A DNA stretch of 35,736 nucleotides from an uncultured Campylobacterales bacterium (GTDB lineage: Bacteria > Campylobacterota > Campylobacteria > Campylobacterales > CACVAW01): contig CACVAW010000024.1 of NCBI GenBank assembly GCA_902727925.1, positions 1 through 35,736 on the forward strand, written 5' to 3'. The notes below the pieces were generated by a model that worked only from the letters and a program-made list of their open reading frames with translations, was not told where the DNA came from and searched no databases. Within the stretch, counting starts at the first letter, position 1, and every line of letters starts with the position of its first letter. This document shows, piece by piece, positions 21,074-35,736 of this stretch. The position numbers and the translations under genes were made by a program.

Positions 21074-22264
21074 TTAATACATAAATCCAAAAAGATATAA
21101 AGGTATTTTATTCCCAATACCAACTTCTATATTGTCACAAGCTAAAAAAGAATTAGGCAAGTCTCTTATTTGTTCATAAGACTTGTTCTTACCACCTACT
21201 TCTACAATATACTTATCATCAATTAAAAAATCCCCTTTATTAGGTATCTTTACACTATACTTATCTTGTAACTGATTTGCAAAAAATGTTTCTCTTATCG
21301 TTCCTATCTCTATCTTTTTCGAATAAGTATAATTCAAATTAGAATTATTAAGATATATTTTCTCAGGCTTTAAAAATATATTATCACCTTTATGTTTGCT
21401 TCTTAATATGTTAAATATCTTTGCCTTATTTAAATAATCCATATACAAATATAAAGTTTCTCTATCAATCCCAATTTTTGAACTTAACTCTTTCATATTT
21501 AACTTATATGGCTTTGACTCACAAATAAGCTTCGTTAACTTTTTTAAGTTCACTATATTCTCATATTTGATTTTAAATATTGATGGAATATCTACTTCAA
21601 TAACCGTACTAATAGTCTCTTGTAGTTTCAAACCATATGTTCTCTTATTTTCAAAATAAAATGGATAAAACCCAGATTTTAGATACTCTTGCCAATGCTC
21701 AAGTGGCTTAATCTCTTTTAATATCTCATAGCTAATATCCAAATGATTTTCTAATATATCCTCAAGACTATAAGTCCTAAGCGAAATCCCTAGTTTTATC
21801 TCTAAAAACTCCTTATATGAAAGACCATTTACACGGTACAAAAAAGCCCTACGACTAAGGTCGACTTTAGAATGTTCTAACTGCAAAGCAGATGAACCAG
21901 AGAATATCACCTTCAAATCAAACATATCATAAATCTGTTTTAACTCAATCTCAAAGTTTTTATACTTGTGTATCTCATCAATAACCAGAACCTTTCCCCC
22001 AAAACCTGAAAACTCTCTAGCAACTTCAACCAAAGAAAAGTTGGTAAAATCAAGACTATCTGCACTGATATATAGTTTTTGTTTTAAAGGCCAGTCTAAA
22101 TTCTCTAAATACTGTAATAAATATGTAGTTTTTCCCACTCCTCTAGCTCCAATAATCCCTATTAGCTTATCATCATGATCTATTAAGTCCCATAAATAAC
22201 GTTTATATGTAGACTTTTGATTACTAAGATACTGAATAAAATTACTATGAGCTATATCAAACAT
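21074..22264 (-). CDS. AAA ATPase of the AAA_14/DUF4143 family
   Basis: A 396-aa protein. The P-loop is IGARGVGKTT (about 38-47), Walker B VLVIDEIHK (about 92-100), and a sensor-like VIFSGSSAL. The family hallmark SRRAFLYRVNGLSYKEFLEI is followed by a winged-helix-like segment (SSKIGIDRETLYLYMDYL) and a C-terminal PD-(D/E)XK-like region (GDFLIDDKYIVEVGGKNKS). Such ATPases are common, sporadically distributed and poorly understood, and several behave as accessory or mobile genes. AAGGAAG precedes the ATG. It stands alone between tpx and putA and is bracketed by GGTTATAACC palindromes, suggesting self-regulation or insertion as a cassette. Confidence 0.88.
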   Translation of the reverse strand: MFDIAHSNFIQYLSNQKSTYKRYLWDLIDHDDKLIGIIGARGVGKTTYLLQYLENLDWPLKQKLYISADSLDFTNFSLVEVAREFSGFGGKVLVIDEIHKYKNFEIELKQIYDMFDLKVIFSGSSALQLEHSKVDLSRRAFLYRVNGLSYKEFLEIKLGISLRTYSLEDILENHLDISYEILKEIKPLEHWQEYLKSGFYPFYFENKRTYGLKLQETISTVIEVDIPSIFKIKYENIVNLKKLTKLICESKPYKLNMKELSSKIGIDRETLYLYMDYLNKAKIFNILRSKHKGDNIFLKPEKIYLNNSNLNYTYSKKIEIGTIRETFFANQLQDKYSVKIPNKGDFLIDDKYIVEVGGKNKSYEQIRDLPNSFLACDNIEVGIGNKIPLYLFGFMY

Positions 22265-26463: not shown

Positions 26464-26509
26464 TTGCTTACTTGAATTTTTCAATATTAGAATATATCTG
26501 TCCAGTTTT
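26464..26509. repeat. 46-bp direct repeat, left copy
   Basis: TTGCTTACTTGAATTTTTCA onward to ATCTGTCCAGTTTT matches 35199-35243 in the same orientation with three differences (two substitutions, one base gap). The two copies flank the sbcDC-plus-four-gene segment. Between the G9 tract and this repeat (26260-26463) I see only broken reading frames. Confidence 0.8.
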
Positions 26510-26525
26510 TTTTTTGGGGGGGGGG
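26506..26525. repeat. T10G10 homopolymer pair
   Basis: Ten T directly followed by ten G, ending 6 bp beyond the stop codon of the 830-aa ATPase gene (on its strand, C10A10). The right copy of the neighbouring repeat lacks this expansion. Confidence 0.8.
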
Positions 26526-26531
26526 ATTTCA

Positions 26532-29024
26532 TTATCTTGTAATCACACCATAATCTTTAAACTCAAATGTATGTACATTATCTTTACCAAATTTATTCAA
26601 CATAAAATTATAAATTCTATCATCATGAGTTGAAATAAAAAACTGTTTATCTGTTTGTTCCTGAATTGAACGAATTAAATCTACAAAAGAATGTATGTTT
26701 ATATCATCCATATTTTGAATTGGGTCATCTAAAAATATAGAATCTAGTTCACTCCATTGTTGTTTAATTGCAAAACTTAAAAATATACTTAGTGCCAGTA
26801 CATTATTTTGTGCCGAACTAAATATATATGAAGGACTATGTTTTTTCTGCATATCTGACATCACTTCAAAAATCAATCTATTACCTAAAGTTGGATTATT
26901 TTGTATTCTTATACTTAACTCTTTCATATATACACTAGGATTTAAATAATAGTAAAACTTTTTGATAGTTTCTTCGTAATTAGATAATAGTGTTTTTGTT
27001 TTATCATCAATTGTAGTTTTAATTGCACTTTTTAAGTTGTCATAATCATTATTAATATTTGATAGCAACACAACTTCTTCTTCTAGCTTTTTAACTTTTT
27101 CAGTTAATTCATCAATTAATTCAAGTTGTTTATTATTTTTAAAATATTCAATTAATGAAGTTGTTAACTCAATAATTCTTTTACTTCTAAGAAGTCCACT
27201 GTTATTCTTTTCTAAGATAGAATTTTCATTTCTGAATTTCTCTTCTAACTCATTTATGGTTTCAAATTTAAGTTTTTCTTTTTCTTGACTATAATATTCA
27301 AAATTTTTATAATTTAAATTCAGTATTCTTGACTTTTTTTCAAATAAATCTTGATAATATTTTAAAGATAAACTACTCTTATATTCTTTATGTTTTTCAA
27401 CTTCTTGAATAAAGGTAATATATTTTTTATCAAAACCATCTATACTGACTTTAAGTATCTCTAAATTATCCACTACAATGTTATTAGATTCTTTTAAAAT
27501 ATCAAAATCAATACTTTCTTTCAACAAAGCACTATATTCTTCATCTAAATCTGTACTTATTTTTTTAATAGTTTTTATAATATCAAGTGACTGATTTCTA
27601 AATAACTCTTGTAGTTCATCTTCTTTTTTTTCAAGTTCATCAATTGAATTATTAATAGAATTAAAGCCTTCGTTTACAAGGTCACTTTCAAGTTTTTCTT
27701 TTAAAAATATTTTAGTCTTATTGATATCAAATTTATTTTCACAAATAGGACAACTATCTAAATTATTATTTTCATCTTGAAGTAAAAACTCTTCAGCTGA
27801 TTTATACATCATTTGTTTCATTGTTAAAAGATTAGCTAAACTATCTCTTAAAAGCTCAATTGATTCTTGAATAGCTATTATTTCTTTCTTTGTTCTAAGA
27901 TAACTTACTTTTTTCTCTAAATATTCTTTTTTATATTCAATTAATGCACTGATTGTATTTTCAAAACCTGCATTTTCTTGGAATAAAATACTTGTCTTTT
28001 TAAAATAACTAATTTCATTAAGTCTTTTATCTAATTTAACTATATTATCTTTTTTTTCTAAATATAAAAAATAATTCTTTAGATTACTTTTTACCTGTTC
28101 ATAAATTTCTTTTTTTGAAAACATAATAATAAAATTTTTTAAAGATTTAAATTCAGCATACTCTTTCGTGTAATTTTTAATCTCCTTTTCTTTATCATTA
28201 TAGTTTTCTAGTAGGTAAGTCATTAGCTTAATTTTATTTTTGATACTTAACTCATTATTTTCAAGGTTTTTTCTATCAATAAAAGCTTTATTTCTTATTT
28301 TATCAAGTTTATTAAAATCTACTTTATTTTTATACAATCTTTCAAGCTCTTCATGCTCTAATTTAGGATTGTTTTGTAAATTTTGTAGTTTAGCTTCTTC
28401 AATATTTAAGATATTTTTTTCCTTGACCAACTCATCAGATAATCTAATAGTTTCATCATTCAAAATTTTCTTAGTATTTTTTATATGTTCATCATATGCT
28501 TTATGCGTTTTAAGTCCAAACAAACTTACTATTGCTTTATACCTATCAGGATCTTTTGTTTGTCTGATAAAATTACTAATAAGTTCTTGTGAAAGAAGTT
28601 GTGTAAAATTAAAGCTTTTTTCAAAACTAATCTCATTAGAAAAGCCATCTTTAACTAAAATATTATTTAAAGAGCTCTCTCTATTTCCATTTAGTGTGAG
28701 GATTCCATTTCCATAATCATTCTTTTTTTTTTGAGGAATAGATCGTTTGACTGTTTGACCATTATCAAATTTAATTTGTACGCCATCATTGACATTTATC
28801 TTACAAAATGAATTTCTTAACAAAGGATAATCATTTCTCTCTTTTGCAGAATCATGGTATCTTTCTAGCTTACCTGTTAATCCCCATTCAATTCCATCAA
28901 AAAATGAAGTTTTTCCAAAACCATTTCGTCCATAAAATAAAATAATATTTTTGTCACTTGGAATATCAAATCTTTCTTGTTTATATGCTCTAAAACTATT
29001 AAACTGAATCTGCTCTATTTTCAC
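26532..29024 (-). CDS. Rad50/SMC-like AAA ATPase with zinc-hook CxxC, probable defence-system motor (ABC-3C/Lamassu-like)
   Basis: An 830-aa protein with split ABC-ATPase ends. Walker A is YGRNGFGKTSF (about 31-41), then long coiled coils, and a central CPIC (425-428) at the hairpin apex as in Rad50/SbcC hooks. A signature-like SSAQNNVLALSIFLSFA (about 736-752), Walker B LDSIFLDDPIQNMDD (about 760-774) and H-loop FFISTHDDR (about 795-803) follow. Only one CxxC half-hook is expected per subunit, so dimerisation through zinc is plausible. It differs from the adjacent SbcC in length and in its signature, with SSAQ in place of LSGGE. The start is GTG behind GAGGAG inside the preceding gene (26-nt overlap), so translation is coupled. 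Defence function is inference from architecture and neighbours. Confidence 0.75.
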   Translation of the reverse strand: MKIEQIQFNSFRAYKQERFDIPSDKNIILFYGRNGFGKTSFFDGIEWGLTGKLERYHDSAKERNDYPLLRNSFCKINVNDGVQIKFDNGQTVKRSIPQKKKNDYGNGILTLNGNRESSLNNILVKDGFSNEISFEKSFNFTQLLSQELISNFIRQTKDPDRYKAIVSLFGLKTHKAYDEHIKNTKKILNDETIRLSDELVKEKNILNIEEAKLQNLQNNPKLEHEELERLYKNKVDFNKLDKIRNKAFIDRKNLENNELSIKNKIKLMTYLLENYNDKEKEIKNYTKEYAEFKSLKNFIIMFSKKEIYEQVKSNLKNYFLYLEKKDNIVKLDKRLNEISYFKKTSILFQENAGFENTISALIEYKKEYLEKKVSYLRTKKEIIAIQESIELLRDSLANLLTMKQMMYKSAEEFLLQDENNNLDSCPICENKFDINKTKIFLKEKLESDLVNEGFNSINNSIDELEKKEDELQELFRNQSLDIIKTIKKISTDLDEEYSALLKESIDFDILKESNNIVVDNLEILKVSIDGFDKKYITFIQEVEKHKEYKSSLSLKYYQDLFEKKSRILNLNYKNFEYYSQEKEKLKFETINELEEKFRNENSILEKNNSGLLRSKRIIELTTSLIEYFKNNKQLELIDELTEKVKKLEEEVVLLSNINNDYDNLKSAIKTTIDDKTKTLLSNYEETIKKFYYYLNPSVYMKELSIRIQNNPTLGNRLIFEVMSDMQKKHSPSYIFSSAQNNVLALSIFLSFAIKQQWSELDSIFLDDPIQNMDDINIHSFVDLIRSIQEQTDKQFFISTHDDRIYNFMLNKFGKDNVHTFEFKDYGVITR

Positions 29025-29604
29025 TTTGATACTCCTCTTTCAATGTATTTATAAAGCTTTTTATTTCATGTTCTTCAATTTTATTTTTAATATCAATAGA
29101 TGTTAAAAATTTATTTGCGAGTTGTCGTTTATTTGTTTTTTCATATATACTATGCTTAATAATATTTTCATCAGAACTAATAGCTTCAGAAATTGAAAAA
29201 TCAAAATGAGAGAATAATGGTATTTGTTTTACGATCACATCTTTTACATTTTCATTATTATTTATATCATCTACTTTTAATACATATTTTTTACAGCAAA
29301 ATTTATTAGATTCAATTTGATTTATAAAATCTTCCTTTATCTCTATATTCTTAGGAATAATAAATAAAAGATATATATTCCAAATTAGTTTATTAGGCAA
29401 TTCAAACTGTTCTAAGTCTGATTGGATATGTCCAGCAATGAATTTTTGAACATCTTTCCATTCTTTTTCTAGTTCTACTATTGTTTCAATTGACTTTAAA
29501 GCTATAATATTGTTTTCTGAGTTAAAAACAATAGGCTTAAGCTTTTGTTCATTTTTTGATAGTTTGAGTAGACTTAAATCTAACTCCTCATAATTATCTA
29601 ACAT
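28999..29604 (-). CDS. Putative ABC-three-component middle component (LmuC-like)
   Basis: A 201-aa soluble protein. The segment ELEKEWKDVQKFIAG, then NIYLLFIIPKNIEIKEDF and NKFCCKKYVLKVD, matches my memory of ABC-3C middle-component families, which bridge an SMC-like ATPase and an effector subunit. A database search is needed to confirm this. The remainder is helical and charged. It follows the 245-aa gene by 12 nt with an AAGGAAA site, and its last 26 nt contain the ribosome-binding site and GTG start of the ATPase gene. That is the expected pairing for a middle component and its ATPase. Confidence 0.5.
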   Translation of the reverse strand: MLDNYEELDLSLLKLSKNEQKLKPIVFNSENNIIALKSIETIVELEKEWKDVQKFIAGHIQSDLEQFELPNKLIWNIYLLFIIPKNIEIKEDFINQIESNKFCCKKYVLKVDDINNNENVKDVIVKQIPLFSHFDFSISEAISSDENIIKHSIYEKTNKRQLANKFLTSIDIKNKIEEHEIKSFINTLKEEYQSENRADSV

Positions 29605-29616
29605 TTTTCATTTTCC

Positions 29617-30354
29617 TTAAAATATTTTTTTTGCATTATTTAAATTATTAAAATTTGTAACACAATTACCACATTTAAAATTTAAATTATTACTTTTTTT
29701 TAGATTCATAAAATCATTTGCTTGTGATTCTTCATCAAAAATTATTCCCGTATTTTTACTAAAAAAGCTTGAGAGTATTTTTGATAATTTATTTTGTATA
29801 TTTAGCTCTCCTGTTTGACATGAGTTACAGGTTAGTCCACCATTATTCATCAATTGACAAATAAATACTGTACCATTAGAAATATTATATATTTGATTAG
29901 TTGTAATAAAGTCGGCTATTGAACCAATTTGCATTCCCAAACTCACTTCAGAAGTTTTTGCAGAATTAAAAAGCCAATTATCAATTTTTTTAATAGTTAC
30001 CTTATTATTATTTTTATGGGGTAAAGAAGTAATGTTATCTACTATTTTACCAATTATGTAAAAATGTATAATTTTATTAATACTAATACCATTTGATACT
30101 TCATTTTTATCTATATCACAGTTTATTTGTTGCAATAAGTTATTTACATCTATATCATCAAGAATATGTTCTTGAATCTCATTCAATGAATTAAGCATGT
30201 TTCTTCTTAGAGTAGTATCAGAAGTAAAATTACTTTGTAAATCAGTACGAATATCAACTATTTGCTCATCCCAAATTTCTTTCAAAGTTCTTCTAGTTGA
30301 TACATTTATTGTACTATGATCTAAATCATTGTCACTTATAATAACTTCTGTCAT
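29617..30354 (-). CDS. Unrecognised 245-aa protein with two CxxC pairs, candidate effector or sensor of the module
   Basis: No family recognised. Residues 1 to about 110 are helical and charged (STRRTLKEIWDEQIVDIRTD). A middle section includes SLGMQIGSIADFITTNQIYN. The C-terminal part holds CNSC (GGLTCNSCQTG, about 175-180) and CGNC (NFKCGNCVTNF, about 228-233), which could bind one zinc ion. Its ATG overlaps the stop of the upstream membrane protein (TAATG), and the middle-component gene follows 12 nt later. The position corresponds to the effector/C-terminal-domain subunit of three-component ABC systems, but no nuclease or protease motif is visible to me. Confidence 0.7.
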   Translation of the reverse strand: MTEVIISDNDLDHSTINVSTRRTLKEIWDEQIVDIRTDLQSNFTSDTTLRRNMLNSLNEIQEHILDDIDVNNLLQQINCDIDKNEVSNGISINKIIHFYIIGKIVDNITSLPHKNNNKVTIKKIDNWLFNSAKTSEVSLGMQIGSIADFITTNQIYNISNGTVFICQLMNNGGLTCNSCQTGELNIQNKLSKILSSFFSKNTGIIFDEESQANDFMNLKKSNNLNFKCGNCVTNFNNLNNAKKIF

Positions 30355-30650
30355 TAGCTAACCTTAATTGTTGAACTTGTTAACCTATTTTCTTCAACTT
30401 GGGTACCTTTAACTACATCAATTTCACTATCTTTAAGAACATTTTTCCTAATTTGAGTTACTTCTTTTTCTACTTTTTGTAATTCAACTTTTGTTTTATT
30501 CTCAACTTCTGAAACTCTCTCATCAATTCTCTTATTTTCATAATTTATATATTTTTTAAATATAGCATATATTATAAAAATGGCAACAAGTGTAATTATT
30601 GCACCTTCTCCTAATCTATCCCATGGAATACTCTCAATTAATTTACCCAT
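30354..30650 (-). CDS. Single-pass membrane protein with cytoplasmic coiled coil
   Basis: A 98-aa protein. One hydrophobic helix (AIITLVAIFIIYAIFKKYI, about 17-35) is followed by a charged coiled-coil stretch (RVSEVENKTKVELQKVEKEV) and a polar tail. The site TAGAAGGAG overlaps the sbcC stop, which ties its translation to sbcC. It could anchor the downstream module at the membrane or act as a membrane-disrupting effector. Both ideas rest on architecture only. It also superficially resembles small phage-type membrane proteins. Confidence 0.75.
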   Translation of the reverse strand: MGKLIESIPWDRLGEGAIITLVAIFIIYAIFKKYINYENKRIDERVSEVENKTKVELQKVEKEVTQIRKNVLKDSEIDVVKGTQVEENRLTSSTIKVS

Positions 30651-30662
30651 CCTTAACTCCTT

Positions 30663-33600
30663 CTAATTTAAATTTAATTCACTCGTCCCATCACCCTTAG
30701 GAACAACTTTTATTTGCAATGGTATTCTTTCTTTCAGAGCCTCTACATGAGAAATCACACCGACCATTTTTCCGCTACTTTGAAGTAAGTTTAGAGCATT
30801 TAGTGCTGTTTCTAAGCTATCCTCATCTAGTGTTCCAAATCCTTCATCTAAGAAGAGTGAATCTATAGCAATTTTCTGGCTAGCAAGCTCTGAGAGTCCG
30901 AGAGCAAGGGCTAGACTTACTATGAAGCTTTCTCCACCAGAAAGTGTGCTTACAGGTCTTATAGTATTTCCTTGGAAGCTGTCTATTACTTCTATTTCTA
31001 GTAGCTGTTCAGTACTTCTTTGTAGCTCATACCTACTTGATAGTACACTCAAGTGATTGTTTGCTAGGCTTATTAATTGGTCTAGTGTGATACCTTGAGC
31101 AAATTTGGCAAATTTATCACCTTGGCTTGAACCTATCATTTCGTTTAGTTTTATCCATACGCTAAAGGTTTCTTTTTTCTTTTCAAGTTTGTTTATCTTA
31201 TCTTCGTGTTTTTTGATATTTGAAGCATTTATTTCTAGTTCTTTTTCTAAACTTCCTATTGATTTTTGTAGTTCATCTATATTTAATTGAAGCTCTTTTA
31301 GTTCAGTATTTATATCTTCTAGTTCTCTATCTGTTAGATTTAATTCTTTTTGTTCTTTTAGCTTTTTTGTTGTATCTGTTTTAAGTGTTTGGATTCTTGT
31401 ATATTTTTCTTCAATAGCTTTGCAAGTTCTAGTTAGCTCTTCTCTTTTAGTACTAGATACTAAAGCTTTTTCAAATTCTTCACATGAGCTAAAGCTATTG
31501 TCTTTTAGTGCTTTTTCAAATGATATATTTAGCTCTTCTAGTTCTGTACTGTTTTGAGTTTGTATTTGTTTTAGTTCTTTTACTTGAATATTTAATGAGT
31601 CATTTTCTGAGTTTTTTTGAGCTAATTCTTTTTCACAACTGTTATAACTATCTTGTATGCTCTTAAAGTTATGGTTTATAGTTTTTTCATACTCTTTTAT
31701 ATCATCAATATCTAATATAGTTTTACTTTTTTGCTCTAACTTCTCTATTTCTTTGTTTAAACCTTTTAGCTCTATTTTATACTCTTCTTGAAGTTTTAGA
31801 GTGTTTTTTACTTTTATATCGATTTGAAGTATATCTGCATACTCTTTTTGGATTTTCTCTTTTTCTAAAGATAATTTTTCTTTTTGATCTCTCAAGCTTA
31901 TTATCTCTTGTAGTTTTCTTTGAGCTTCTTGTTTATCCTTAGCTAAGATAAGTTTTGAGTTATCTTCTAAAGTGAGTTTATTGTTTAAGAAAAACTCATC
32001 TAGGGATAAAATCTTTTGTTCTTGTTTTTCTAGTGCTAAAGTACTAGATTCTAGTTCTGAGTTTAGTTTAGCTAGGTTTATCTGAGCTGTTTTTTGTTCT
32101 GTTGTTTCATATGATAGTAGTTCTTCTTGCTCTTGAATTTGTTTTGTTGTTTCATCTATATTTATCTCTAAAGTATGAGTGATATAAGGATGTGAAATCG
32201 AACCACATAGATAACACTCTTCACCCTCTTTTAGTTTAGCTCTGTCACTTTCATAGTTTTTAAGTAGTAGTTCTCTTTCTCTTATGGCTTTTTTCGCTTG
32301 TAGGGTTTCTTCTATTTGTTTTAGAAGTTTTGTTTTCTCTTCATTTATTTTGTTTTGTGTACTTATATCTTTATTTATATCTTCTAGGAGTTTTTTCTCT
32401 TTGTTTATATCTTCTAAAATTTTTTCATACTCTACTATAGACCTAGTAAGCTCTTGTATATCGTTTATTTGGCTTCTTATGTTTTCTTCATTTAGGTTTA
32501 TATTTGAGCTTTTTTCTTTTAAGAGTTTATATTCCTCTTCTTTTGTCTCACTTTGTTCTTTTAAGTTTTTTATTTCTAGATTTTGTTTTTTTATTTCTTT
32601 ACTTATGAGACTTTCATCTTCTAAAATAGATTCAATATCTAAAGATAAAAAAATTGAAAGATTATGCTTTTGTTTTAGTAATTTTGAGTCTAGTTCCCTT
32701 GTTTGTACTTGTTTTGCTCTTTTTTGACTTTGTATTTCTCTTAAGTCTTTTAATTTTATACTATTTTGCTCATATGATATTTTTTCTCTACTGTATTTAT
32801 CTTGTAGTAGCTTTGATTGATTTTGTTTTGATTCTAAAAGCTCTTGTAGTTCAATACTTTGTTTTCCAAAAAGTTCTAGTTTTTGTTTATCTTTACTAAT
32901 TCTTTGATTTAGTAGGTTTTTTTCTTGATATATTGCTTGTACATTTAAAGCTTTATTTGAAAGTTCAAGACTCATAAACTCTTCTTTTTTATCTTCTTTT
33001 TCTTTTGATATTAGCTCAAACTCTTCATGGTACTTGACACTATCTATCTCTAATTTTTGTAAGTTTTCGAGCCATAGTGATGTCTTTTTTGAAAATTCTT
33101 CTTTTTTATCTAGTCCTTTTTTTTGAACTTTGAAAGTCTCTAAATTTTGGTTTTTCTTTTCTACTACTGCTTTTTCAAGTAAGTCTATATTTCCTAAAGA
33201 TAGTTCTTCATCTTCTATAGCTCTTTTTTTAAGTATATAGGTGTCATATATCTCTTTTGATATTTGTTTATAAATCCCCGTACCCGTGATTTTTTCAAGT
33301 AAAGTGGACCTATCTGATTCTTTTGCTTTTAAAAATGCATCAAAACTTCCTTGGGCTAACATCATCGACTGAATAAATCTATCGAAGTCTAAACCTGATA
33401 ATTCTTCTACATACTTAGGTACATCTGTTACTGTAGATTTTATCACTTTAGATGATTCTACATCAGCTAGTTCCATTTTGGCACTTTGGAATTTGCCATC
33501 AGCTGACTTTCTAGCTCTTTTTTGAGTCCATGAAGATCTATATATGATACCCTTTATTTCAAACTCTACTTCACAATAACACTCACCAGTATGCCTAGAC

Positions 33601-33803
33601 ATAATCTCACTTGGTGGTTTTTTAAGTCTTGGAGTTCTTCCATATAATGCACAGGTGATAATGTCTAGTATAGTACTTTTACCAGAACCAGTAGGCCCTG
33701 TAATCGCAAATAGGGCATTATCATTTAGAAATGTACGAAAATCTATCTCGAATTCACCCTTTAATGAGTTGATATTCAATGATTTTACTTTTAATATTTT
33801 CAT
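30663..33803 (-). CDS. sbcC: Exonuclease subunit SbcC (Rad50 homologue)
   Basis: A 1046-aa ATPase subunit of the SbcCD hairpin-cleaving nuclease. Walker A GPTGSGKST (36-44), zinc-hook ECYLCGS (C530, C533) midway through long coiled coils, ABC signature STLSGGESFIVSLALALGL and Walker B SLFLDEGFGTLDED near the C-terminus. It cleaves DNA hairpins and blocked ends together with SbcD. Its ATG overlaps the sbcD stop by 4 nt. Unusually, four further genes follow on the same strand, beginning 12 nt downstream. Confidence 0.97.
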   Translation of the reverse strand: MKILKVKSLNINSLKGEFEIDFRTFLNDNALFAITGPTGSGKSTILDIITCALYGRTPRLKKPPSEIMSRHTGECYCEVEFEIKGIIYRSSWTQKRARKSADGKFQSAKMELADVESSKVIKSTVTDVPKYVEELSGLDFDRFIQSMMLAQGSFDAFLKAKESDRSTLLEKITGTGIYKQISKEIYDTYILKKRAIEDEELSLGNIDLLEKAVVEKKNQNLETFKVQKKGLDKKEEFSKKTSLWLENLQKLEIDSVKYHEEFELISKEKEDKKEEFMSLELSNKALNVQAIYQEKNLLNQRISKDKQKLELFGKQSIELQELLESKQNQSKLLQDKYSREKISYEQNSIKLKDLREIQSQKRAKQVQTRELDSKLLKQKHNLSIFLSLDIESILEDESLISKEIKKQNLEIKNLKEQSETKEEEYKLLKEKSSNINLNEENIRSQINDIQELTRSIVEYEKILEDINKEKKLLEDINKDISTQNKINEEKTKLLKQIEETLQAKKAIRERELLLKNYESDRAKLKEGEECYLCGSISHPYITHTLEINIDETTKQIQEQEELLSYETTEQKTAQINLAKLNSELESSTLALEKQEQKILSLDEFFLNNKLTLEDNSKLILAKDKQEAQRKLQEIISLRDQKEKLSLEKEKIQKEYADILQIDIKVKNTLKLQEEYKIELKGLNKEIEKLEQKSKTILDIDDIKEYEKTINHNFKSIQDSYNSCEKELAQKNSENDSLNIQVKELKQIQTQNSTELEELNISFEKALKDNSFSSCEEFEKALVSSTKREELTRTCKAIEEKYTRIQTLKTDTTKKLKEQKELNLTDRELEDINTELKELQLNIDELQKSIGSLEKELEINASNIKKHEDKINKLEKKKETFSVWIKLNEMIGSSQGDKFAKFAQGITLDQLISLANNHLSVLSSRYELQRSTEQLLEIEVIDSFQGNTIRPVSTLSGGESFIVSLALALGLSELASQKIAIDSLFLDEGFGTLDEDSLETALNALNLLQSSGKMVGVISHVEALKERIPLQIKVVPKGDGTSELNLN

Positions 33804-34987
33804 TGAGTAGACACCTTCTCATAAATTTTTTTAAAACTTAGTGTTAGCTCTTCGACAAATTCTTTATCTTCTAGCTCCTCTATATCTAATCTTCTTGTAA
33901 ATACATCTGTAGGTGTAAGTTCATCTAGGCTAGTTACTTTTAACTCTTTTGCTTCTAGTTTCTTTTGGGTTTTATCTATCTTTATAGCTAAGATAATAAA
34001 TTCATTTTTGTCAGCATATTCTCTTATCTCCTGATTTGCAGACATTGGATTGTCATCATTAAGATGTATTTCAATCCATGTTGTTTTATCTTCAATTTTT
34101 TCTAGTTCTTTTAGTACTGATTCTAAATTACCTCTTAGGACTTGTAGTTTTCTTTTATTTGGTATTTCTATCTCTTTTACATTTACTTTTTCATTTTTGA
34201 ACTCAACAATATTAATTTTCTTTTTTTGATTTGCTTCTGAAAAACTAAGAGGAATGGGAGAACCACTATATCTCACATGGTTACATCCTACTATTTGATT
34301 TATATGAAGATGACCTAAAGCTACATAATCAAAATACTTGCCTAAAAAATCACTCCCAATATCAAGAGTACCACCTATATAGATATCTTTTTCACTTTCA
34401 CTTGTACGAGATCCTAGCGTTGTTAGATGTCCTGTAGCGATTATTGGGAGATTGTCTTTGGCAGTTAATTTAATAGCTTCTTTATATATGTCAATATAAT
34501 GTTGCTTTATTCCAGTATTTAAAGAAGATTCTTTTTCATTTGTAGTTTGGCCACTTACAGACTCTCGCACAATACTATCTCTTAAGAATGGAACAGCACA
34601 AACAACACCTTGAAGTTTATCTTTTTTATAAATAGGTATTAACTCATTTTCATCAACATCACCCGAAGTGATAACATATACATTCATAAACTCTAATAGT
34701 TGTTTTGGAGCTTTAAGAGTAGAAATTGAGTCATGATTTCCAGCAGTAATAATGACATATAAATTTTCTATTGCAAACAATTGTTTTAAAAAATTATAAT
34801 AAAGTTCTAAAGCATAATTGGGAGGATTACCTGTATCAAAAATATCCCCTGCAACTATAAGAACATCAATATTTTCTTTTTTGATTATCTCAGTAAGCCA
34901 AGACAAAAAAGCTTTATGTTCTTCAGCTCTACTTTTCCCCATAAACTTTTGACCGATATGCCAGTCAGATGTGTGTAATATTCTCAA
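33800..34987 (-). CDS. sbcD: Exonuclease subunit SbcD (Mre11 homologue)
   Basis: A 395-aa calcineurin-like phosphoesterase. Metal-site motifs: TSDWHIG (about 6-12), AGDIFDTG, TAGNHDS, ATGHLTTLG and ALGHLHINQ, then YSGSPIPLSFSEA typical of SbcD. The C-terminal third provides the SbcC-binding part. The start is TTG with TAGGAT immediately upstream, inside one arm of an inverted repeat. It is the first gene of a six-gene minus-strand operon. Confidence 0.96.
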   Translation of the reverse strand: MRILHTSDWHIGQKFMGKSRAEEHKAFLSWLTEIIKKENIDVLIVAGDIFDTGNPPNYALELYYNFLKQLFAIENLYVIITAGNHDSISTLKAPKQLLEFMNVYVITSGDVDENELIPIYKKDKLQGVVCAVPFLRDSIVRESVSGQTTNEKESSLNTGIKQHYIDIYKEAIKLTAKDNLPIIATGHLTTLGSRTSESEKDIYIGGTLDIGSDFLGKYFDYVALGHLHINQIVGCNHVRYSGSPIPLSFSEANQKKKINIVEFKNEKVNVKEIEIPNKRKLQVLRGNLESVLKELEKIEDKTTWIEIHLNDDNPMSANQEIREYADKNEFIILAIKIDKTQKKLEAKELKVTSLDELTPTDVFTRRLDIEELEDKEFVEELTLSFKKIYEKVSTQ

Positions 34988-35198: not shown

Positions 35199-35243
35199 TT
35201 GCTTAGTTGAATTTTTAATGTTAGAATATATCTGTCCAGTTTT
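35199..35243. repeat. Direct repeat, right copy
   Basis: TTGCTTAGTTGAATTTTTAA through ATCTGTCCAGTTTT, the partner of 26464-26509. It lies 16 bp before the end of an IS30-type element. Confidence 0.8.
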
Positions 35244-35259
35244 ACAACAGGATTTAGTT

Positions 35260-35609
35260 CGCCAATTCGATAAATAAGTGCAATTTTTTTAAGAAGGAGA
35301 AAAGGGGAGGGTTAACCAAGAGTTAGCTATTCTTTTTTTCTACTACAAAGAAAGGAATTGGCATGAGATACAATCAGTTAACCTTGGGAGAAAGGTATCA
35401 TATAGAAGCTTTGATGAGACTTGGATACAAACAAATAGATATTGCCAAAGAGTTGGGCGTACATCCAAGTACAATAAGCAGAGAATTACAACGGAATAAA
35501 TTTAGAGGTAAATATAAACCTGTTCAAGCACAAGCAGAATATATTTTGAGGCAAAAGAAGAAACGAAAACGTTCATCTATAAGTACATCAATAGAGAGGT
35601 ATATAAGAG
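35260..35609 (+). mobile_element. IS30-family element, copy 1, interrupted
   Basis: Begins CGCCAATTCGATAAATAAGT, 103 nt before a transposase ATG, and continues for 350 bp until an identical beginning appears at 35610. The remainder of copy 1, if present, lies beyond the window. Confidence 0.75.
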
Positions 35610-35623
35610 CGCCAATTCGATAA
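35363..35623 (+). pseudogene. IS30-family transposase, truncated by insertion of a second copy
   Basis: The ORF encodes 86 residues: MRYNQLTLGERYHIEALMRL, then a helix-turn-helix YKQIDIAKELGVHPSTISREL, characteristic of the IS30 N-terminal DNA-binding region. The native sequence ends at about IERYIR, after which APIR-stop is encoded by the beginning of the next IS copy. The DDE catalytic domain is therefore missing here. AAAGGAA precedes the ATG. Confidence 0.85.
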
Positions 35624-35736
35624 ATAAGTGCAATTTTTTTTAAGAAGGAGAAAAGGGGAGGGTTAACCAAGAGTTAGCTATTCTTTTTTTCTACTACAAA
35701 GAAAGGAATTGGCATGAGATACAATCAGTTAACCTT
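35610..35736 (+). mobile_element. IS30-family element, copy 2, left end (runs off the window)
   Basis: From CGCCAATTCG it repeats 35260-35385 with a single difference, an extra T in the T-run (8 versus 7). It includes the transposase ATG at 35714. Same orientation as copy 1. Confidence 0.85.
35714..35736 (+). CDS. IS30-family transposase, 5' fragment at window edge
   Basis: ATGAGATACAATCAGTTAAC is identical to the start of the copy 1 transposase (MRYNQLT) with the same AAAGGAATTGGC upstream. The rest lies outside the window, so intactness cannot be judged. Confidence 0.75.

Follow-up and report, generated by a model that had tools for sequence, protein, structure and literature searches.

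Four genes lying directly behind sbcD and sbcC in an uncultured Campylobacterales bacterium are best explained, with good likelihood in our judgement, as a Lamassu-type abortive-infection module with a split membrane effector, placed in a slot that elsewhere receives many other defence systems. The window, by which we mean the whole stretch of 35,736 nucleotides that was analysed, contains these genes together with two insertion sequence ends, as follows.

33800-34987, minus strand: sbcD, a nuclease of Mre11 type that anchors the slot on the left (TIGR00619, 227 bits against a cut-off of 77.65; PF12320; motifs intact)
30663-33803, minus strand: sbcC, Rad50-type ATPase with a CYLC hook (NCBIfam SbcC models, 1e-100 to 1e-156; 49-69% identity to the SbcC of locus L012)
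30354-30650, minus strand: 98-aa protein, one transmembrane helix followed by a coiled coil, candidate effector (hydropathy)
29617-30354, minus strand: 245-aa protein, CxxC motifs at residues 176 and 228; lacks an enzyme domain and is probably the C-terminal docking domain of a third component (similarity to L020)
28999-29604, minus strand: 201-aa ABC-3C middle component, MC1 / LmuC (PF20289, 46.4 bits; LmuC, 9.6e-7)
26532-29024, minus strand: 830-aa LmuB-like Rad50/SMC ATPase with a CPIC hook (PADLOC LmuB, 2e-74; AAA_23)
26478-26509, minus strand: remnant of an IS3-family end, just after lmuB, where other loci have a DUF2779 gene (32-nt direct repeat, 94%)
35212-35243, minus strand: another copy of this IS3-family end in the same orientation, located upstream of sbcD (94% match to the first)

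Layout of the locus

The six genes, from sbcD and sbcC through those for the 98-, 245-, 201- and 830-aa proteins, are arranged on the minus strand as the initial annotation of this DNA had claimed, and are joined by overlaps or by gaps of no more than 12 nt. sbcD and sbcC overlap by 4 nt, a gap of 12 nt separates sbcC from the 98-aa gene, the 98- and 245-aa genes share 1 nt, another 12-nt gap follows, and the 201- and 830-aa genes overlap by 26 nt. Several of the starts are preceded by AAGGAG or AAGGAAA, which resemble ribosome-binding sites. The metallophosphoesterase motifs of SbcD are intact, as are the Walker A, CYLC hook, LSGGE and Walker B motifs of SbcC. Because the GC content of the four-gene module (23-26%, with GC3 of 12-14%) is lower than that of sbcDC (29-30%, with GC3 of 16-18%), the module is apparently a later arrival behind sbcDC. 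In another part of the window, beyond putA at 21074-22264, an AAA_14/DUF4143 ATPase matches the PADLOC candidate PDC-S01 (1.8e-26) and is possibly a second defence gene.

Identity of the ATPase and the middle component

The initial annotation had proposed an ABC-3C/Lamassu-like module, and profile searches with Pfam and PADLOC agree with it. The 201-aa protein scores well above the cut-off of 27.3 bits for PF20289 (MComp1, ABC-3C middle component 1) and matches LmuC as well, so that the misgiving voiced earlier, that it might resemble no middle component, falls away. Its nearest relative found is the middle component of L020, a locus from a Fusobacteriaceae genome (42% identity over 86 aa). 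The 830-aa protein, which is 33% identical to the LmuB of L015, possesses a Walker A motif (GRNGFGKT), its own CPIC hook at residue 425, an SSAQ signature and the motif IFLDD. The order third component, middle component, ATPase is the same as in L012-L016, L020 and L233. An AlphaFold model of the middle component was acceptable (pLDDT 77), and comparison of it with the PDB gave no significant match. ABC-3C and Lamassu have been treated in review as one superfamily with LmuA, LmuC/MC and LmuB (PMC10586767). Since the MComp1 and LmuB models both match, the 830-aa and 201-aa proteins place the module, as judged by these profiles, in ABC-3C/Lamassu. The other two proteins in the proposed profile check, of 98 and 245 aa, gave no family.

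A probable docking domain and a candidate effector

The 245-aa protein had been described as a CxxC protein of no recognised type. This holds insofar as no family in Pfam, NCBIfam or PADLOC and no recognisable enzyme domain was detected. None of the Pfam CTD models matches it, a search of the whole of its own genome with the CTD5 model was also negative, and no credible direct relative was found among 399 genomes of the order, plasmids and viral contigs; two weak matches at the level of the order proved spurious. An AlphaFold model reached a pLDDT of only 35. However, residues 92-231 and the C-terminus of the protease-type third component of L020 can be aligned collinearly, with both CxxC motifs in register and a local score of 86 that none of 400 shuffles attained. 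BLAST gives a weak match to the same effector (E 1.1) and single-sequence hhalign an E of 0.088. Two CxxC motifs are rarely obtained by chance in a protein of this composition (115 of 20000 shuffles), and their distances from the C-terminus are similar in the window (70 and 18 residues), in L020 (68 and 25) and in L233 (69 and 25). A further profile comparison, A4 against A3, had returned 98% and was dropped as circular, L020 being present in both. The alignment and the shuffles argue moderately that the protein is probably the C-terminal docking domain of a third component, split from its effector.

The 98-aa protein contains one strongly hydrophobic segment (residues 13-31, 19-residue mean 2.3). 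No family was found for it in Pfam, NCBIfam or PADLOC and no relative in any fetched locus, so that, as first remarked, it is a membrane protein that matches no known subtype and remains an orphan. A motif that it shares with the 245-aa protein (STIKVS/STINVS) was considered as an interaction motif and lies within chance (33 of 300 shuffles). Because the 245-aa protein lacks an enzyme domain, this membrane/coiled-coil protein becomes the candidate effector; its position and topology hint that it likely fills that role.

Comparison with known systems sheds light on this arrangement. In the usual LmuA an enzyme is fused to the docking domain, whereas the 245-aa protein of the window is without one and has a 98-aa membrane protein as its neighbor. 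Lamassu systems with an MBL hydrolase and a protease effector (L015, L020, L027, L047) share MC1, LmuB and gene order with the window, and L015, L027 and L047 are likewise located directly behind sbcDC. Their third component, however, combines a trypsin-like and a docking domain in one protein (CTD4 in L015) and is accompanied by a gene for the hydrolase, whereas the window has neither hydrolase nor protease. (At 4705-8697 of L015 the hydrolase gene is split by a 450-aa transposase-like gene, and that system may be broken.) The ABC-3C systems with CTD1 and a Cap4-like nuclease effector (L012, L013, L014) resemble the window in their MC1 and LmuB and in following sbcDC or Mre11-Rad50; they differ in that nuclease and CTD1 are fused and a DUF2779 gene closes the locus. 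A Priestia plasmid (L233) encodes an alpha/beta hydrolase of 296 aa, a stand-alone CTD5 of 246 aa, MC1 and the ATPase. Like the probable docking domain of the window, that of the plasmid is encoded on its own, measures about 245 aa and carries a pair of CxxC motifs near the C-terminus, and the effector has a separate gene, as it probably has in the window. Unlike the candidate of the window, this effector is a hydrolase rather than a membrane protein, and BLAST detects no similarity between the two domains. Since effectors in separate genes do exist, as in L233, an unfused effector would mark a variant of ABC-3C/Lamassu rather than exclusion from it.

A recurrent slot behind sbcDC

MComp1 was found in 6 of 397 Campylobacterota genomes and true SbcD, scoring above the cut-off, in only 24, which does not describe a core locus of the phylum, the possibility that had been set against a defence role. 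In five of the six genomes, that of the window included, the MC1 module immediately follows, on the same strand, sbcD-sbcC or a shorter Mre11-Rad50 pair; the probability of this by chance is about 6e-10, assuming a generous 1% per locus. Outside the phylum, 2 of 50 scoreable ABC-3C/Lamassu loci (L027 and L047) were behind sbcDC and the other 48 were without it.

The contents of this place were surveyed in 79 loci fetched around SbcD/Mre11 genes of Campylobacterota. In 62 of the 72 loci that could be scored, sbcC and the next gene are read in the same direction, in 40 of them with a gap of at most 50 nt, and the window, with same-strand cargo 12 nt behind sbcC, is of this kind. Among the lead cargo proteins 24 of 30 match PADLOC at E <= 1e-10; the types include HerA, SIR2, Mokosh, OLD, Gabija, Ppl, Hachiman, Qat, UG6 reverse transcriptase and several PDC candidates. 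As a control, 61 genes upstream of sbcD gave 20 families with one member each, versus 366 cargo families, a comparison that is qualitative because the control proteins are shorter. In 26 of 77 loci, frequently though not universally, the run behind sbcC is closed by a gene for DUF2779, which has been placed in the 3'-5' exonuclease clade of RNase H-like proteins and has a PD-(D/E)XK-like DUF83 domain (PMC3985635). In the Chitinophagaceae, 5 of 7 SbcC loci have Lamassu, Gabija, Hachiman, PDC-S06 or another LmuB system behind sbcDC, and L047, a further Bacteroidota locus, has its Lamassu there. The place behind sbcDC thus appears, from these comparisons, to be an exchangeable defence slot that is often closed by a DUF2779 nuclease gene. 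Two further observations concern its parts. In L175 the Mre11 and Rad50 genes are separated by genes for proteins of 1025 and 368 aa, a position for cargo within the pair. Where DUF2779 genes occur apart from sbcDC (L213-L231), they are often beside genes for DUF262-like (GmrSD-type) or WYL-like regulators, judging by eye from the starts of the sequences.

Relatives whose bookends, sbcDC and DUF2779, are 81-98% identical carry unrelated cargo, namely Gabija, Hachiman, Mokosh, Qat, Ppl, SIR2-HerA, OLD and Lamassu. Among six species with sbcD 91-97%, sbcC 88-93% and DUF2779 81-92% identical, not one cargo is shared, and a second set of species shows the same pattern; within it, L196 and L202 have their outer flanks in common at either end. 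L012 and L137 are 93-99% identical in the outer right flank, yet one contains ABC-3C and the other OLD. In the copies of L014 and L199 sbcC is 44% but DUF2779 93% identical, and the bookends therefore seem to recombine independently. One genome (G171) possesses two separate cassettes of sbcDC, cargo and DUF2779, with bookends 92-95% identical. These patterns suggest strongly that the cargo of the slot is exchanged among related bacteria, whereas its bookends are conserved.

Like the defense hotspots at core genes of E. coli and P. aeruginosa (PMC10121019, PMC10250203), the sbcDC slot has conserved flanks and interchangeable cargo; unlike them, it holds its cargo inside the Mre11-Rad50 operon, has DNA nucleases as bookends and occurs as a cassette at several chromosomal places. 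In open-licence papers on SbcC/SbcD or Mre11/Rad50 in defence islands and on DUF2779 we found no description of such a slot, and its novelty is to that extent provisional.

Insertion sequence remnants in the window

The window's slot is without a DUF2779 bookend and has the IS3 remnant in its place. The two IS3-end copies bracket the 8.7-kb block from sbcD to lmuB, and a third, at G000:C40:67618, has an IS3 OrfB-like tail next to it. The assignment to IS3 comes from the OrfB-like tail read beside two of the copies. The bracketing ends fit, but do not prove, IS-mediated movement or trimming. The only DUF2779 gene of this genome is on contig C26 (L212, 8951-10558), not beside sbcDC but with an AAA ATPase and an IS630-like transposase nearby. 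At the junction with IS3, ten C and then ten A (26510-26530) immediately follow the stop codon of lmuB. At the contig end, identical 102-nt direct repeats (35284-35385 and 35635-35736) surround the N-terminus of an IS30-like transposase (ORF 35363-35623), and these repeats are probably the reason that the contig breaks there.

Proposed mechanism and alternatives

Sequence comparison documents the identity of LmuB and the middle component, the layout of the operon, its recurrence and the variety of cargo. In the mechanism that we propose, the 830-aa LmuB would sense aberrant DNA, ends or hairpins, the 201-aa MC/LmuC would act as a bridge, and the 245-aa docking protein would hold or release the effector. 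The separate 98-aa membrane/coiled-coil protein would be that effector, with membrane damage in infected cells as the likely outcome. The module would have been inserted into the recurrent cargo slot behind sbcD-sbcC and is probably co-expressed with sbcDC; both co-transcription and anti-phage activity we infer. Reviews link Lamassu/DdmABC to palindromic or hairpin DNA and to DNA ends, which LmuB senses before activating the effector (PMC12904381, PMC12409362).

What part sbcDC plays admits of several answers. The initial annotation had suggested that the module might share the DNA-end sensing of SbcCD or be controlled by its expression. The adjacency is real and recurrent but is not peculiar to ABC-3C, and since the slot hosts many unrelated defence systems, a shared position for insertion and expression is favored over dedicated sharing of end sensing. 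At its simplest, the slot would be a device for recombination and expression only, in which sbcDC and DUF2779 supply a steady promoter and homology for swapping and are not functional partners of the cargo. We give this an even chance: cargo has been swapped between common outer flanks (L012/L137; L196/L202) and bookends recombine independently (L014/L199), but other operons would do equally well, both bookends are DNA nucleases in their own right, and duplicated cassettes retain the two of them.

SbcCD acts on hairpins, palindromes and DNA ends, the same kinds of structure as in Lamassu sensing, and this overlap makes a partnership attractive. SbcCD could process ends or hairpins and so trigger LmuB, or it could remove the host's own hairpins and breaks and thus keep Lamassu from being set off by the host chromosome. 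The linkage in most Campylobacterota MC1 genomes and in two loci elsewhere, and the retention by G171 of two complete cassettes, speak for such a working role. It is nevertheless doubtful, as the slot also houses unrelated sensors (Qat, Hachiman, Gabija, Mokosh, SIR2-HerA) and nearly all Lamassu loci elsewhere do without sbcDC. A shared address is the more economical reading, because the slot serves systems with unrelated triggers. A broader proposal, that SbcDC and DUF2779 make up the fixed chassis of a modular immune system, which accepts many different effector systems as plug-ins, the chassis processing DNA ends for sensing or shielding the host from its cargo, and the ABC-3C of the window being one plug-in with a new membrane-acting split effector, we regard as unlikely.

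It is less probable still that the 98- and 245-aa genes are unrelated hitchhikers beside a two-gene MC-LmuB remnant; neither protein has a family match and the 98-aa protein has no relatives found, but the genes occupy the third-component position, their starts are coupled and the C-terminus of the 245-aa protein resembles that of the L020 effector. A core Campylobacterota housekeeping locus, suggested by sbcDC being a repair enzyme, is hardly credible given the rarity of MC1 and true SbcD, the low GC of the module and the IS remnants on both sides.

A Lamassu-type module in an exchangeable slot, our preferred reading, provides a rule for finding new defence systems, which is to read the genes between sbcC/rad50 and DUF2779. 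It raises the testable question of whether a DNA-repair nuclease pair is the mere address of the slot or a working partner of its contents. If the 98-aa protein is truly a Lamassu effector that acts on membranes and has a gene separate from that of its docking domain, it would widen the known range of Lamassu effectors.
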